From Methanobacteriota archaeon (GTDB lineage Archaea; Thermoplasmatota; Poseidoniia; Poseidoniales; Poseidoniaceae): 34,034 nt of DNA. Positions 11,354-23,155 of the stretch are shown here, one piece after another; positions within the stretch are counted from its first letter, which is position 1; each line of letters begins with the position of its first letter. The position numbers and the translations under genes are program-made. The notes beneath the pieces are model-generated. The model searched no databases. It was given only the letters and a program-made list of their open reading frames with translations, and was not told the DNA's origin. The stretch covers positions 1 through 34,034 of the forward strand of contig NZFU01000051.1 of assembly GCA_002689345.1 (NCBI GenBank), written 5' to 3'.

Positions 11354-12550
11354 TCAGGCAATCGGCGAGCCACAACTTGGGCAGGCAATCCATCCTGGTG
11401 AAATAACAGTTCCACAACACATTTTCGGAGCACTTGGCTTTTCGCCCCCAGCACCATCAACTACCTTCTGAGCAGTCTGCTGACGCAGCATTTCTTGCAT
11501 AACTTCAGGGGTTAGAGCGCCATGTTCGGCTGCCATTTCCATCATTTTCTGTTGGAATTCGTTTTGGCTATCCATTCTTTGAGTTTGGAAATTCTGTTGA
11601 TTTGCAATTCGGTCTGCCTTTCTAGCTTGAACTTCTGCAAACATGTCCATCGCTCTCTTTGATTTAGCATCGGCCTCATCAACACGGACTTCCATTTTAC
11701 CACGTTCATAATTTACTTCAGCTTCCCACTTGGCTTCTTGAGCCCTTAGGCCCTTCAATTCATGCTCTAATTCAGCGGTAACTTGCCCACGTGCTTTCGC
11801 TCTTGCGACATTGGACTCCATTTCGATACGTGCTAAAGTAATGGATTCAGTTTGTGCATAATGTGCTAATTGAGCTTCGGTATTTACTTGATTACCAGCG
11901 GTCTGTGCTTCTACAGCAGCACGGTGTCTTTGTACTAATTCCATATCTGTAGGATTGGTTACTGGGAATGCTTTGAGTAAAGTGAATCCTAGATTAGACA
12001 ATAGATTTCTCATGCCGGATTCAGCAGACATCTCAAATCTCTCTAAGAATGAAGCATCTCTTAATCCAGCAGCGTCTTGGCATGAAGCAAGACAAGGTGC
12101 AACGACACGTGCCTTAACTTCATCACCGACAATGGCGATCAAGCCATCTCGAGTAAGTGTAGGTGCATTATTCGCAAAGAAATTCAAAAGTTTAGGAATG
12201 TCATCAAGATTCATTCTCATTCTCAGGTTAGCAAAACCTTTCACTTTCTCTCCATTTGCAATTTGTCCCTCGAATGGAACCCAGTAGTCCATTGGTCCAG
12301 TCATTGCAAACAATAGACGTCTATCGCTGGCGGTAACGCCCATCTTGTCCCCAATCCAACGGCTAAAGCCACCGGCCATATTTTTGAGTAAAGTCTCGGT
12401 TAGAACATCTCCTATTCTACCATCTACAATCATAGCACAAGCTTCGTTAGGCTTGAGCATAACTTGCTGAGTAGAAAGGGTTTGTATCTTTTCTGCATTA
12501 ACCAATCTAGCAATTATATCGGGGCTATCTCTCCATCTGTAATTCGCCAT
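11354..12550 (-). CDS. SPFH-like domain protein with coiled coil and C-terminal zinc ribbon
   Basis: N-terminal SPFH/virion-core-like region (TQQVMLKPNEACAMIVDGRIGDVL), long charged coiled coil, C-terminal MCCGTVISPGWIACPSCGSPIA; no N-terminal TM segment. Confidence 0.8.
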   Translation of the reverse strand: MANYRWRDSPDIIARLVNAEKIQTLSTQQVMLKPNEACAMIVDGRIGDVLTETLLKNMAGGFSRWIGDKMGVTASDRRLLFAMTGPMDYWVPFEGQIANGEKVKGFANLRMRMNLDDIPKLLNFFANNAPTLTRDGLIAIVGDEVKARVVAPCLASCQDAAGLRDASFLERFEMSAESGMRNLLSNLGFTLLKAFPVTNPTDMELVQRHRAAVEAQTAGNQVNTEAQLAHYAQTESITLARIEMESNVARAKARGQVTAELEHELKGLRAQEAKWEAEVNYERGKMEVRVDEADAKSKRAMDMFAEVQARKADRIANQQNFQTQRMDSQNEFQQKMMEMAAEHGALTPEVMQEMLRQQTAQKVVDGAGGEKPSAPKMCCGTVISPGWIACPSCGSPIA

Positions 12551-12554
12551 AGTA

Positions 12555-13106
12555 TCACTTCTTTACTTTCTTTTGTTTTAGTCCGGAAAGGACATTTGCT
12601 CTTGCTCCGAAAAATCCTCGGCAACTGGTGACCATCTGTGTAGTTTGTAAAGCCAACTGGCGAGGTTCACCTTCTCCTGTTGCAATACAATGTTCAGCAC
12701 TATTTGCAATATTTACTGCTTTAGTAACCATGTCGATGACCTCATGGTCATGTTTGATTAATTTTTTGAGGTCCTTATTTGATGGTGATCTTTGTCCTGA
12801 AAGGAAAGCATGCTCCATACCGGCAACAGCCTTATTCACATCTTCAATCAAGTAATCACATTCTTCGAGACACTGTTTTGCAGCACGTGCGACTTCGATG
12901 TTTCCTGAACGGAATTGACTATCAAACATATTCTGCATGTGGCTCCTAACTCTTCCTGCTGCACGAGAGATTTCATCTCGAACCATTTTGTCAGTTTCAA
13001 TGCGAGAGCCCTTGGTATAACCATTGTATCCAAGCAGGACTAATTGTACACCGCGAATGTATGGCACAACATCGAGTGGAGTTCCAATCATAGTCTTCCC
13101 TAACAC
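12555..13106 (-). CDS. Hypothetical alpha-helical protein, co-oriented 4 bp upstream of the SPFH gene
   Basis: 183 aa ORF, helical character, basic C-terminus (GLKQKKVKK). Start could be MLGKTM or MIGTPL. Confidence 0.78.
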   Translation of the reverse strand: MLGKTMIGTPLDVVPYIRGVQLVLLGYNGYTKGSRIETDKMVRDEISRAAGRVRSHMQNMFDSQFRSGNIEVARAAKQCLEECDYLIEDVNKAVAGMEHAFLSGQRSPSNKDLKKLIKHDHEVIDMVTKAVNIANSAEHCIATGEGEPRQLALQTTQMVTSCRGFFGARANVLSGLKQKKVKK

Positions 13107-13172: not shown

Positions 13173-14636
13173 TCACTGGTCTAAATTTGATTGATTTCGA
13201 GAAACTATCTCCGAACCGATAATCGTCACCAATCCTGAACCGATTAATGCAGACAAAAACACTTCTAAATTAGCTAGTCCAAAATCATTGGTTGGTGATG
13301 TCAAGTATCCAATTCCTGTACTGAAATCAGCAGTATACATTCCATATATTACTACTGAAAGTAATCCACTTATTGCACCTGCTAAAGATGCACGTGAATC
13401 GATACGATGCCATAGTGTTAGTAGTACGGGTAAGACGGTGGCAGCAGCTAGTAAATCAGCAAATAAGAAAATCCCGAATACACTTGCAGCATCGAATGTG
13501 AAACTGCCAATAGTAGGCCCAGTCGCTAGATATATCGCCAACGGTATCATTGCAACAGTGGCGATTCGAGCCTGGTTCAAATTCATTTTTCCATCAGAAA
13601 GATCTCTGGTAATAGATGCTGAAATCGCATTTTGTAATGTATCAACACTTGAACAAACTAGTGCGATTCCAAGAACTACAAATCCTGCAATAATTAGCAC
13701 ATGTACATCCTCCAACAAAACGAAGAATGCAGCTGATGGGTCTGAAGCAGTTCCCTTTGCAGCCGCAACGGTTCCCAGAACTCCCATAATGAATACCAAT
13801 GGTAAAACAAGTCCAGCTGCAAGTAGAGACCCCTTTTTGAGAGCTTCTTCGTCTTCTGATGCCCATGCTCTTTGCCAATTCCCTTGCGAAAACATTTCAG
13901 CGGCTGTAATCGCTACAACAAGCGCCAACCCTGATTTGAATGAATCCATGTAAGACATACTTCCAATACTCCAATTATCTTCACCTTCGGGATTGTATGC
14001 TTTGGCATCTGAAATCAAAGAACTTAGGTCTCCTGCAAATAATACCAATAGAAGAGTAATGATGAGCCATAGTACTACCCATGCCTGGATTTTATCAGTT
14101 CGAAGCGAGGTAGGTAATCCTCCATATGCAGTATATGCTGCAGTTACGATACCGACTGCAACCATCGGAATGATTGGGTCCATGTCAGATAAAACATGCA
14201 TAGCTTTACCGATGGCTGTAAATTCTGCAAACAGGAATGTGAACATGTAAGTTACTGATATGATACCCACATAGATCTGCATAGGCCTGCCTATTTGCAT
14301 TCTTACATAATCGGCAAGGGTAACTCCATCCGGCAATTTCCTTCGAATCTTCGGCCCCACGTATGCGAGAAGGAGAAATGGTGTTGAGGCAGAGACAGCA
14401 TATCCTACAACATCCCAAAATCCACCCCAATACCCTACTTCGGATGGACCAAACAATATCCATATTCCCATTCCTGAGGCAAAAAGACTGAGTCCAATCT
14501 TTAGCCAATTTTGCGTACCTCTAGCTGATAAGTATTCATCAGCATCTATTTTTTTTGTTGTTGCAGCCTTGTATCCAATGTAGCCGAAGAATCCAAGCGT
14601 TGCAATCATCAACCAATATGCAATATTCGTGTTCAT
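13173..14636 (-). CDS. Sodium:solute symporter (SSF) family transporter
   Basis: About 13 TM segments; VTAAYTAYGGLPTSLRTDKIQAWVV is characteristic of SSF. Confidence 0.93.
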   Translation of the reverse strand: MNTNIAYWLMIATLGFFGYIGYKAATTKKIDADEYLSARGTQNWLKIGLSLFASGMGIWILFGPSEVGYWGGFWDVVGYAVSASTPFLLLAYVGPKIRRKLPDGVTLADYVRMQIGRPMQIYVGIISVTYMFTFLFAEFTAIGKAMHVLSDMDPIIPMVAVGIVTAAYTAYGGLPTSLRTDKIQAWVVLWLIITLLLVLFAGDLSSLISDAKAYNPEGEDNWSIGSMSYMDSFKSGLALVVAITAAEMFSQGNWQRAWASEDEEALKKGSLLAAGLVLPLVFIMGVLGTVAAAKGTASDPSAAFFVLLEDVHVLIIAGFVVLGIALVCSSVDTLQNAISASITRDLSDGKMNLNQARIATVAMIPLAIYLATGPTIGSFTFDAASVFGIFLFADLLAAATVLPVLLTLWHRIDSRASLAGAISGLLSVVIYGMYTADFSTGIGYLTSPTNDFGLANLEVFLSALIGSGLVTIIGSEIVSRNQSNLDQ

Positions 14637-14645
14637 ACTTATCCC

Positions 14646-15482
14646 TCAATTTAGTTGTGCAATTATTTTGTGCATTCTATCTACTAATTCTAAAGGATTG
14701 TGCGCTAGAATATACAGTGCAGGCTCCCATCCAAAAGCGCCCTCATCCAGAATAATATCAATTCCTTGGTGGGGTACTAAATCTCCTTTAGGGGCAAATG
14801 TCAGATTGAAATCTAATTCCTCACAAATAGTCTCGATCCTATCCTTGTCATCTCCTGGATGAATATTCAATATTGCAGTTTTTGCGCCATCATGGACTCT
14901 AGCATCAAGTAGCATGTTAGCTAAATGTTTAGATGCTCCAAACGCTGGAGTTTCATGATGGCGTAATGTGTTGTCAACTATTGTCACTTTGCCCGGGAAT
15001 GCAGCAACTTCTGCTGTTGATCTTGATGATTCGAGACAACAAGCGATATTCATTCCAACCGCTGGCATTTGCTTTTTCAATCTGTTAACATCAATTCTAG
15101 AAATCGCCCATTCCAATCTCTTCAGTAATGCTGTTTGTTCTTGGTCTGAATCAAGATCTGTACCTGTCAAAGACTTGTCGAACCGCAGTACTTGGCCTGG
15201 TGCAAATGCTATTTCCATGACAAATCTTGTACGGCTAGGTTTTGCGTTTGGTCCAAGTTGGCGAAGAGCCATTGATATTTCATGCGCCCAGCCATCGATA
15301 GTAGATCCATCAGACGTTCCAGCCATATGAGGCAATTCACGGTGTGCCATTCGTGATATTGTTGACTGGGTAGAACCCAAAATATCAGCTATTTCAGCCT
15401 GTGACCAATTCGAAGCCTTCAAATTTCTAGCTAATTGCATATGCAAACGTTCGAGCCACGCAGAGCCATCTGATCCTAACAT
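14646..15482 (-). CDS. thiR: HTH transcriptional regulator with C-terminal ThiN domain (ThiR-like)
   Basis: N-terminal HTH (NWSQAEIADILGSTQSTISRM); C-terminal MPAVGMNIACCLESSRSTAEVAAFPGK...FGASKHLANMLLDARVHDGAKTAILNI...GIDIILDEGAFGWEPALYILAHNPLELVDRM matches the ThiN (archaeal thiamine-phosphate synthase-type) pattern. Confidence 0.87.
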   Translation of the reverse strand: MLGSDGSAWLERLHMQLARNLKASNWSQAEIADILGSTQSTISRMAHRELPHMAGTSDGSTIDGWAHEISMALRQLGPNAKPSRTRFVMEIAFAPGQVLRFDKSLTGTDLDSDQEQTALLKRLEWAISRIDVNRLKKQMPAVGMNIACCLESSRSTAEVAAFPGKVTIVDNTLRHHETPAFGASKHLANMLLDARVHDGAKTAILNIHPGDDKDRIETICEELDFNLTFAPKGDLVPHQGIDIILDEGAFGWEPALYILAHNPLELVDRMHKIIAQLN

Positions 15483-15525
15483 ATACTTTCCTGAGGGCTA
15501 TACTTATTCAATATTCCTAACTAAA

Positions 15526-15540
15526 AATGCATATTGCATT
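15526..15540. promoter_or_regulatory. Inverted repeat AATGCA-TAT-TGCATT, candidate operator upstream of thiR-like gene
   Basis: Perfect 6-bp arms, 3-nt spacer, 44 bp upstream of the thiR-like start codon. Confidence 0.45.
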
Positions 15541-19582: not shown

Positions 19583-22500
19583 ATGCGCCGAACAATCGCC
19601 CTTGGGATTCTTGCTTGCTTCCTGCTCTCAATCATTCCAGCAATCTCTAATTCCACTCCTATTTCTGATAGTGAGGGAGAGGTTATTGTCAATTCAAAAA
19701 TGATTGATGATTCTGAGTTGACACTATCACAATTAGATGCATTAAATGCAATCGGTATGAGCCGTGGAACAAACTCAAATTGGTCAGCTGCCGGTGGCTC
19801 AATGAATGATGATGAGATATACGAAATGGTATTCGATTCACAAGGCAATGTAATCATCTGTGGCACGATTTATCAAGCATCTCAATTCGGTGCAATCCAA
19901 GTTTATACCGAGGGTGAAGGCGATATTCTATTGGCCAAACTTTCCAAGGATGGTGATTGGGAGTGGGCTGTTTCAGCAGGAACTGCACTCTACTATGACG
20001 AATGCCGTGGGGTTACAATCGATTCTAATGACAATGTGTATGGAACCGGATATTTCCAGGGTTCAGTGAATTTCGGTAATACTACGGTAACCACTACTGG
20101 TTTCGACGGATGGCTAGCACGAGTGAATAGTACAGGGCAATTTGATTGGGCTATGAAATTCGGTGGTTTTGATGTGGATGTAGGTTGGGATTTAGCAGCT
20201 GACAATTACGATAATCTCTATGTGACAGGGTATTATCAAAACTTCACCGAATTCGATGCTACGCAGTTATCTGCGCAAGGAGAATCTGAAAATGCGAGAT
20301 TTTTCGTGGCATACTTCAATGTGAGTGCAAATCAATGGGATTGGGCCAAGGATACTTCTGGTTCTGGAAATGCAGTGCCTTATCAGGTGGTTGTAGAAGC
20401 TTCAACAAATGATGCATATATCGCCGGATACAATACTGGAACTGAACAATGGGGTAACGGTTCCTTCACTTCCAGCCCCGAATCTACCTATGCTGGATTC
20501 CTAGTGAAGTATGGCGATAATGGGACTTTCAAATGGGGTCAAAATACCGGAGGTAGCCAATGTTTCGGAGGCAATTGTGGCGTCTATTTCAATAATGTAG
20601 TAATGCATCCAAACGGAGGAGTTGTCGTTGGTGGAAACTTCTTGCAAACCTACAAGCAACAAGGTGGAAATGTAATCAATGGACAAGGCAGCTGGGATGT
20701 CCTCTTGTTGCGTTATGATGCTTCAGGTTCACAAATATGGGATTATCATGCTGGAGGAAATAGTGATGACCGTTTGCAAGCATTGTCAATTAATCCTAAG
20801 GGGCAAGTTCAGTTTGGAGGAAATCATCTCGAGGATATGAAATTCGGAACAACTACCTTACAGAAGAATTTCACAGCAGTGAAGTACGACGGTTTCATAG
20901 CTCAACTTGACAATAATTCTGATTTCCAGTGGGCTATGAGCATCGGCGGAGCAGATAATGATACTGTGGGTGCGCTTTTGGCATTGGATGATGGAACATT
21001 GGTTGCTGGAGGAGATTTCAGCGGTACTGTTTGGTTCGGAGATACTCCACGTACTGCAACTGACCAAGATGTATTCGTTTGGAAGTTCCAGCATGATAAA
21101 GACGATGATGGAATTACAGATTATACTGACAATTGTCTTAATACACCTAACGCTAATCAGAGTAATTATGATTCAGATATCAAAGGTGATGCTTGTGATA
21201 ATGATGATGATAACGATGGCTTACACGATGTTTTAGATGATTGTAAATACGGTGTGTTAGAATGGAATCAATCCAACTCAACACTAGATCACGACGGTGA
21301 TGGATGCAAAGATATCGAAGAAGATAGCGATGATGATAATGATGGTATTGATGATGGCGATGATAACTGTCCTAGTGGAGTATTAGATTGGACAATAGAT
21401 GCATCTAGTGATCTTGATAATGATGGATGTCGAGATATCGACGAGGATAACGATGATGATGGAGACAGTATTCTTGATGTCGATGACAACTGTCACTTTG
21501 TTTCCAATCCACTTCAAGAAGATTTCGAAGAAGATGGAATCGGTGATATTTGTGATGGTGATGACGATGGCGATGGAGTCGATGACACCTCAGATGATTG
21601 TTCACAAGGAGCCAAAAATTGGACCTCTGAAGCACAAACCGACAAAGATGGAGATGGCTGTGAAGATGAAAATTCTAATGAAGATCTAGACGATGATAAT
21701 GATGGAGTTTCAGATGATTTAGACTTTTGTCCAAGGGGTGTAACTGGATGGAATTCAACACAATCTAATGACCGAGATGGTGACGGTTGTCGCAATTTCA
21801 ATGAAGATAGCGATAATGATAACGATGGTGTAATCAATGCAGATGGTAATGGAATTGCCATTGATAATTGTCCTAATGGTATTACCAATTGGACAAGAAA
21901 CAGTACCAATGATAACGATGGCGACGGCTGCTTAGATGATAGAGAAGACGATGATGATGACAATGATGGCTTTTCAGATATCGATGACTACTGTCAATTG
22001 ACCGAAGGTTATGCAACCCAAGGAAGTAGAGGTTGCCCTGACTATGATGAAGATGGATGGGCAGATCAAGATGATGCCTTCTTCCAAGATGAGACTCAAT
22101 GGCAAGATTTTGATGATGATGGCTTTGGAGACAATCCAGATGGAAATAATCCCGACGCCTGCCCATTTGAATGGGGTAATTCTAGTAAGGATAGAGATGC
22201 ATGCCCTGATGATGATGGTGATGGATACTCAAATCCCGATTTACTTTGGACTGAATTGAATGGTGCAGATGCATTTGAAGATGATCCACAACAATGGTCA
22301 GATATCGACGAAGATGGCTTTGGAGATAATTTCGAAGGAGATGTTTTTGATAGATGCCCTGAGGTTAAAGGTACTTCTACAATCGATAGATTCGGTTGCC
22401 CGGATTCAGATGGTGATGGCTATTCGGAACCAGATGCTTTCTGGACTCTAGATAGATGGGAATCGTTAGGATATGGTCCTGACCAATTCAAATTCGACCC

Positions 22501-23155
22501 AACTCAATGGTACGATACAGATAATGATGGCTTTGGTGACAATTGGGGTAATCCTGAATGGAACGACACCAGAGATGAAGGCTGGCCTGGTCAATTTGTT
22601 GAAAATGCCACTTCTGCTGACATGTGTCCTTTAGAAAAACCGGATGGACGGTTCGATGATAATATCAACTACCCTGGATGCTTGCTTTCTGAACCGAGTG
22701 ATGGTGGAAAGATAACTACTGATGACACCTCTTCTGTTGATGATGAAGGAATGGGGACTGTCACAATTATCGGGATAATTGGCGGGGTAGTAGTCTTGGC
22801 ATTAGTCGGAGTACTTGTAGCTATAATGAAGAAAAAGAATCAGCCAAAGAAGAGGCGTCCAAAACCCAATCTATTGTCTGAACTTCCAAAGCCACAACCG
22901 CCAATGGCAGCAGGACCAACAGGTCCAGCACCTCCTTCTTCTGAAGAGGTTGGCGAAGATGCTGATGATATAACGGATGACTCCTCATCTGATGATGGAG
23001 CTTCTGATGATGAAGTTACAGTCGGTTCCTGGGAAGATTTACCTGCGGGTGACTATCTAGACCCTGATGAAAATGGTACTGTTTGGTTCAAGGCAAATGA
23101 TGGCGATAATTGGTATCAAAATGCCGATGGAACCTGGACAAAGTGGCAAGATTAG
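19583..23155 (+). CDS. Large secreted/surface protein: beta-propeller-type repeats, thrombospondin type 3-like Ca-binding repeats, TM anchor, short cytoplasmic tail
   Basis: N-terminal signal (MRRTIALGILACFLLSIIPAIS), SBBP-like repeats (DSQGNVIICGT, DSNDNVYGTGYFQG), Asp-rich DxDxDGxxD repeats with DNC/DGC pairs, TM TVTIIGIIGGVVVLALVGVLVAIMKKK, tail ending NWYQNADGTWTKWQD. Confidence 0.93.
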   Translation: MRRTIALGILACFLLSIIPAISNSTPISDSEGEVIVNSKMIDDSELTLSQLDALNAIGMSRGTNSNWSAAGGSMNDDEIYEMVFDSQGNVIICGTIYQASQFGAIQVYTEGEGDILLAKLSKDGDWEWAVSAGTALYYDECRGVTIDSNDNVYGTGYFQGSVNFGNTTVTTTGFDGWLARVNSTGQFDWAMKFGGFDVDVGWDLAADNYDNLYVTGYYQNFTEFDATQLSAQGESENARFFVAYFNVSANQWDWAKDTSGSGNAVPYQVVVEASTNDAYIAGYNTGTEQWGNGSFTSSPESTYAGFLVKYGDNGTFKWGQNTGGSQCFGGNCGVYFNNVVMHPNGGVVVGGNFLQTYKQQGGNVINGQGSWDVLLLRYDASGSQIWDYHAGGNSDDRLQALSINPKGQVQFGGNHLEDMKFGTTTLQKNFTAVKYDGFIAQLDNNSDFQWAMSIGGADNDTVGALLALDDGTLVAGGDFSGTVWFGDTPRTATDQDVFVWKFQHDKDDDGITDYTDNCLNTPNANQSNYDSDIKGDACDNDDDNDGLHDVLDDCKYGVLEWNQSNSTLDHDGDGCKDIEEDSDDDNDGIDDGDDNCPSGVLDWTIDASSDLDNDGCRDIDEDNDDDGDSILDVDDNCHFVSNPLQEDFEEDGIGDICDGDDDGDGVDDTSDDCSQGAKNWTSEAQTDKDGDGCEDENSNEDLDDDNDGVSDDLDFCPRGVTGWNSTQSNDRDGDGCRNFNEDSDNDNDGVINADGNGIAIDNCPNGITNWTRNSTNDNDGDGCLDDREDDDDDNDGFSDIDDYCQLTEGYATQGSRGCPDYDEDGWADQDDAFFQDETQWQDFDDDGFGDNPDGNNPDACPFEWGNSSKDRDACPDDDGDGYSNPDLLWTELNGADAFEDDPQQWSDIDEDGFGDNFEGDVFDRCPEVKGTSTIDRFGCPDSDGDGYSEPDAFWTLDRWESLGYGPDQFKFDPTQWYDTDNDGFGDNWGNPEWNDTRDEGWPGQFVENATSADMCPLEKPDGRFDDNINYPGCLLSEPSDGGKITTDDTSSVDDEGMGTVTIIGIIGGVVVLALVGVLVAIMKKKNQPKKRRPKPNLLSELPKPQPPMAAGPTGPAPPSSEEVGEDADDITDDSSSDDGASDDEVTVGSWEDLPAGDYLDPDENGTVWFKANDGDNWYQNADGTWTKWQD
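21095..22680 (+). repeat. Coding tandem degenerate repeats (thrombospondin type 3-like, Asp/Cys-rich)
   Basis: Recurring DDxCxxGxxxWxSxxxxDxDGDGCxDxxEDxDDDNDGxxDxxDxC pattern in translation; GATGATGATGG-rich DNA. Confidence 0.85.

Follow-up and report, generated by a model that had tools for sequence, protein, structure and literature searches.

The locus studied here raises the question of what a symporter of the SSF family imports when its gene directly follows that of a regulator with an HTH-ThiN architecture (thiR), and whether the regulator controls this import. In the window, i.e. the whole analysed stretch of 34,034 nucleotides, both genes lie on the minus strand and thiR ends 9 bp before the start of the SSF gene (Table 1). 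This layout was the basis of the original prediction, and profile matches confirm the families of both products: the ThiN domain (PF10120) scored 91.7 bits against a cut-off of 25 (E 5.4e-26; Pfam), and the SSF profile (PF00474) 69.5 bits against 22.8 (E 3.3e-19; Pfam). Judging from sequence comparisons, the pair is very probably an autoregulated operon for the uptake of vitamin B1 in a Poseidoniales (Marine Group II) archaeon that is apparently auxotrophic for thiamine. According to this model, the symporter would import thiamine together with Na+, and a cytosolic thiamine pyrophosphokinase (TPK) would turn the imported thiamine into TPP. Upstream of its own promoter, ThiR would bind the AATGCAnnnTGCATT palindrome; with a thiamine compound in its ThiN domain, it would most likely repress thiR and the co-transcribed transporter gene.

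Table 1. Positions of the predicted uptake operon and its control elements within the window.
Feature	Position	Strand	Evidence or remark
SSF Na+/solute symporter, 487 aa, predicted thiamine importer	13173..14636	-	PF00474; predicted fold; riboswitch on relatives
thiR-SSF gap, 9 bp	14637..14645	-	GAGGG, resembling a ribosome-binding site, overlaps the thiR stop; TPP riboswitch absent, unlike in G003/G008/G023
thiR, HTH-ThiN regulator, 278 aa	14646..15482	-	PF10120 match; solved ThiN domains matched by sequence and fold
Predicted thiR operator-promoter, ATGCAATATGCAT-N15-TTGAATA	15505..15539	-	Sole match in the window's genome
Palindrome AATGCA-ATA-TGCATT, predicted ThiR binding site	15526..15540	-	Arms conserved

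The transporter protein itself does not disclose its substrate. When solved structures were searched with the SSF protein alone, no match was obtained, and a search with an SSF profile retrieved only weak matches to SGLT2 and SMVT. With results that are empty or weak, the substrate is not readable from homology, as had been anticipated. The predicted fold matches SGLT, SiaT, CHT1 and SMCT1 with E-values down to 1e-10 (Foldseek); only the fold was taken from the structure models, whose confidence is moderate (65 pLDDT). A close kinship with a characterised SSF transporter, which would have spoken against a role in thiamine uptake, did not emerge from the structure searches or from the comparison with E. 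coli PutP: no close solved or characterised relative was found by sequence, nor could the protein be assigned to any characterised subfamily of the SSF transporters. Its similarity to PutP is remote according to hhalign (probability 79%, E 1.6e-5), which revealed no close sequence kinship. The proline/Na+ symporter belongs to the same family as the window protein, and its presumed Na2-site positions A53, M56, S340 and T341 (PutP numbering) may be alignable. Residues A53, M56, S329 and S330 are invariant in the SSF alignment; the first two align with A53 and M56 of PutP, which would fit the proposed coupling to Na+, and the others lie near S340 and T341, the second half having been aligned by eye. 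Unlike PutP, however, the SSF protein shows the regulation and replacement patterns of a thiamine importer.

The replacement pattern becomes clear when the thiR neighbourhoods, of which 20 loci were examined, are compared. SSF directly follows thiR in the window (G000) and in eight further genomes (G002, G003, G008:C22, G021, G023, L146, L151 and L154). In the remaining thiR genomes of the genus whose loci were read, with the exception of G020, the same slot is occupied by thiBPQ. The expected conservation of the gene pair was thus confirmed in further genomes, but the pair is not fixed, since SSF and thiBPQ are interchangeable. Behind thiR, 14 of the congeneric genomes carry a trio of genes for proteins of approximately 375, 555 and 196 aa. 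The first matches the substrate-binding protein of the thiamine ABC transporter (TIGR01254, 175 bits versus a cut-off of 93.4); for the second and third, the matches to ABC models of related kinds include ThiP and ThiQ. Where the contigs reach far enough (G000, G002, G003, G008:C22, G021 and G023), the flanks of the SSF slot are the same as those of the thiBPQ slot. SSF occurs in 16 and ThiB in 20 of 41 genomes, and both are found in only one (G008); the Fisher p of 1.4e-5 for this exclusion is indicative, as related genomes are non-independent. ThiBPQ is an ATP-driven binding-protein system with a fold unrelated to SSF. For two transporters that swap in one operon, also behind the TPP riboswitch of sister genomes, and that avoid each other across genomes, a shared function is the simplest explanation.

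The thiR-SSF pairing exceeds chance, and since G003 (= L123, AG-404-K16) is taken to be a single-cell genome, the arrangement found there has probably not arisen through faulty binning. In the G008 bin, thiR occurs twice, once with thiBPQ and once with riboswitch-SSF (L028, L029), and the bin is probably a mixture of two strains. Almost every thiR locus, and part of the other SSF loci, has two adjacent genes behind the uptake operon, located at 11354-13106 (minus strand) in the window. Their products of 183 and 398 aa match no family over its cut-off, and the larger one shows merely a weak C-terminal zinc-ribbon match. Elsewhere in the window (19583-23155, plus strand), a predicted protein of 1190 aa has many Asp-rich repeats that resemble calcium-binding repeats.

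An RNA element upstream of the transporter genes of relatives points in the same direction. The TPP riboswitch (RF00059) was detected in 11 of the 41 genomes, in nine of them above the gathering score. It lies directly 5′ of SSF in G003, G008 and G023, where it is situated between thiR and SSF, and in G027, G033 and G035. Four genomes have it directly 5′ of thiB (G025, G037, G038 and G039), and in G026 the contig ends just past the riboswitch. We also built a covariance model from ten sequences and ran it on 80 SSF loci from GTDB; the SSF-bearing relatives carry the database names Poseidoniales, Marine Group II, Poseidoniaceae and Thalassarchaeaceae. The riboswitch is located at the SSF start in 59 of the 80 copies, 58 of which are full and one of which is truncated by a contig end. 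With few exceptions, the model ends about 12 nt inside the SSF reading frame, and because of this overlap the aptamer's conserved GGAGG likely doubles as the ribosome-binding site. Compensatory changes are seen in six pairs of the stems, and single-strand folding energies were no better than those of shuffles; our evidence for the riboswitch is the covariance model together with the covariation. Whereas most SSF relatives share the element at the SSF start, it is missing from the window locus, in which neither the Rfam scan nor the covariance model found it.

Which B1-related compound is taken up may be judged from the pathway genes. We scanned the 41 genomes for ThiC, ThiD, ThiE and TPK, and control genomes gave the expected matches. 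ThiC, the absence of which had been proposed as a check, was found in none of the 41 genomes, and ThiE in none over the cut-off. A single genome had a partial ThiD match barely over the threshold (27.2 versus 27 bits). As the window's genome is only 77% complete, these absences rest on its relatives, 12 of which are at least 90% complete. On the other hand, TPK is present in 36 of the 41 genomes, including that of the window, where the catalytic and B1-binding domains exceed their Pfam cut-offs (PF04263, 32.7 versus 30.7; PF04265, 29.4 versus 22) and TIGR01378 stays below its own (70.2 versus 76.4 bits; NCBIfam). Since neither HMP nor the thiazole is usable without ThiD and ThiE, thiamine is the likely substrate of SSF, which narrows the original prediction of an importer for thiamine, a precursor or an analogue. 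ThiV of SAR11, an SSF-family symporter under a TPP riboswitch and a likely HMP importer (PMC11452348), offers a precedent for the view that the substrate of SSF is instead HMP, the pyrimidine precursor, or a product of thiamine breakdown. ThiV shares with the window protein its family and the B1-related type of compound, and with most SSF relatives the riboswitch control; its signature is Tyr78, Asp139 and Phe254 in SiaT numbering (PMC11452348). However, the window SSF would be controlled by ThiR rather than by a riboswitch. Furthermore, a host that can use HMP by means of ThiD and ThiE, as in the ThiV type, was not encountered among the 41 relatives, which kept the TPK required for thiamine use, and SSF is exchanged for a thiamine importer, ThiBPQ. 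We therefore regard uptake of HMP or of a breakdown product as improbable, and the pathway genes favour thiamine.

The gene just upstream of most SSF copies outside the thiR genomes suggests a further reading. It encodes a P5C dehydrogenase (TIGR01236, 749 bits versus 613.6), so that SSF could be a PutP-like symporter of proline or another amino acid, with its adjacency to thiR being incidental. Likewise, in 14 of the 80 copies (L128, L129, L130, L133, L143, L144, L155, L160, L167, L169, L178, L180, L190 and L199) SSF comes directly after the P5C dehydrogenase gene and is accompanied neither by thiR nor by a riboswitch. Yet the same dehydrogenase also precedes the riboswitch-thiBPQ unit in G037 and G038 and the riboswitch in G026, and thus it marks the slot rather than SSF; because it stands before thiBPQ as well, the proline symporter was rejected. 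The riboswitch in the majority of SSF copies and the remoteness of PutP likewise make an amino-acid symporter very unlikely. If SSF is a thiamine importer, the 14 copies apparently reflect a loss of thiamine control. As to the other copies, thiR is found just upstream of SSF in seven, two of which have the riboswitch, too (L122 = G023 and L123 = G003); one copy (L127 = G020) has the operator described below with no thiR nearby, and one is cut at a contig end. One record named Acidimicrobiaceae bacterium (L148) carries a Poseidoniales-type SSF contig and is probably a misnamed or mixed bin.

The thiR product has the N-terminal HTH and the ThiN domain that characterize the ThiR family. Its C-terminal half matches the solved ThiN domains 2php and 2pb9 in sequence and fold searches. 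For the N-terminal part, HTH_3 scored slightly under its cut-off (21.1 versus 23 bits; Pfam), and the predicted structure (confidence 65) has helices at residues 6-47. The gene is common across family f1, with one copy in most genomes, and rare in f2, where it occurs in two genomes of one genus. Upstream of thiR, nearly every genome of the genus has the element ATGC(A/G)NNNTGCAT with TTGAATA 15 bases on, which in most genomes begins 57 bp ahead of the start codon; in G013 it has diverged. In 20 matches, both arms of the palindrome are conserved and the 3-base spacer is variable. Searching the 41 whole genomes for the pattern ATGCAnnnTGCAT-N15-TTGAATA gave exactly one match in 18 thiR genomes, located upstream of thiR, and no match in the genomes without thiR; the reversed pattern, which served as a control, matched in none of the 41. 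G020 alone has two matches, one at thiR and one 113 bp upstream of its SSF gene, which is unlinked to thiR and resides on another contig. This second operator is the strongest evidence that ThiR may regulate SSF, beyond itself, and together with the riboswitch of the relatives and the replacement by thiBPQ in the same slot it supports the proposed ThiR-regulated importer. A scan with bacterial promoter and terminator models, which are ill-suited to archaea, found no more than in shuffles. In several relatives, a gene for a uracil-DNA-glycosylase-like (Mug-type) protein lies just upstream of thiR (e.g. L027:5074-5634, L023:4999-5574), and the thiR operator is inside its 3′ end.

The thiR product might also be seen as an enzyme, a thiamine-phosphate synthase of the ThiN type whose N-terminus only resembles a DNA-binding domain. 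Arg154 and His186, which are kept and align with an Arg and a His of 2pb9 that presumably correspond to putative catalytic residues of ThiN enzymes, would fit this reading. In close orthologues, however, they are replaced by Lys/Ser and Tyr. The substrates of such an enzyme could not be made without ThiC and ThiD, and a single conserved palindrome per genome marks the thiR promoter, plus the unlinked SSF gene of G020; an enzyme in place of a regulator is hardly credible. A role as regulator agrees with the HTH-ThiN regulators of archaea (Rodionov 2017, doi 10.1128/JB.00743-16; Hwang 2017, doi 10.1128/JB.00810-16; both as cited elsewhere). The shared features are the domain architecture, the link to thiamine transport genes and a conserved upstream palindrome, a family trait that the window locus appears to have at its predicted thiamine-uptake promoter. 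It would differ in that the regulon in the window's genus apparently comprises only thiR and one transporter. Moreover, in a host without TMP synthesis TMP does not arise as an intermediate of the pathway, so that ThiR may have a different ligand.

To trace the history of the pairing, we inferred a tree of 81 SSF proteins, in which those linked to thiR fall into separate groups, namely L146/L151/L154, L191, and the window together with L122, L123 and L124. Forcing all eight together was rejected (p-AU 0.005), while doing so for the window group of four was allowed (p 0.12). This phylogeny thus rejects one common origin for all thiR-SSF pairs; it contains some long branches and was rooted at the midpoint, so that the direction of change is an inference. 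The simplest reading would be repeated entry of a riboswitch-SSF unit into the thiR operon in place of thiBPQ, with the riboswitch retained in some genomes (G003 and G023) and lost in others (the window and G021). Both the transporter (SSF or ThiBPQ) and the regulator (ThiR or TPP riboswitch) have evidently been exchanged in Poseidoniales. We lean slightly towards a broader proposal, in which control of one symporter passed repeatedly between an RNA and a protein sensor via intermediates with both, and in which ThiR senses thiamine or TPP, not biosynthetic TMP.

Neither SSF-type importers of vitamin B1 (ThiV) nor ThiR regulators in archaea are new as such. What appears to be new is the thiR-SSF combination, the exchange of transporter and regulator, and the assignment of thiamine uptake in Marine Group II archaea; a search of the open-licence literature found no paper that deals jointly with Marine Group II and the TPP riboswitch. 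These archaea are abundant and uncultured; they are predicted to be auxotrophic for thiamine, not for HMP, and an importer is proposed for each lineage. The same transporter under a riboswitch, a protein regulator, both or neither constitutes a natural series, which makes the exchange of a riboswitch for a protein regulator directly testable.
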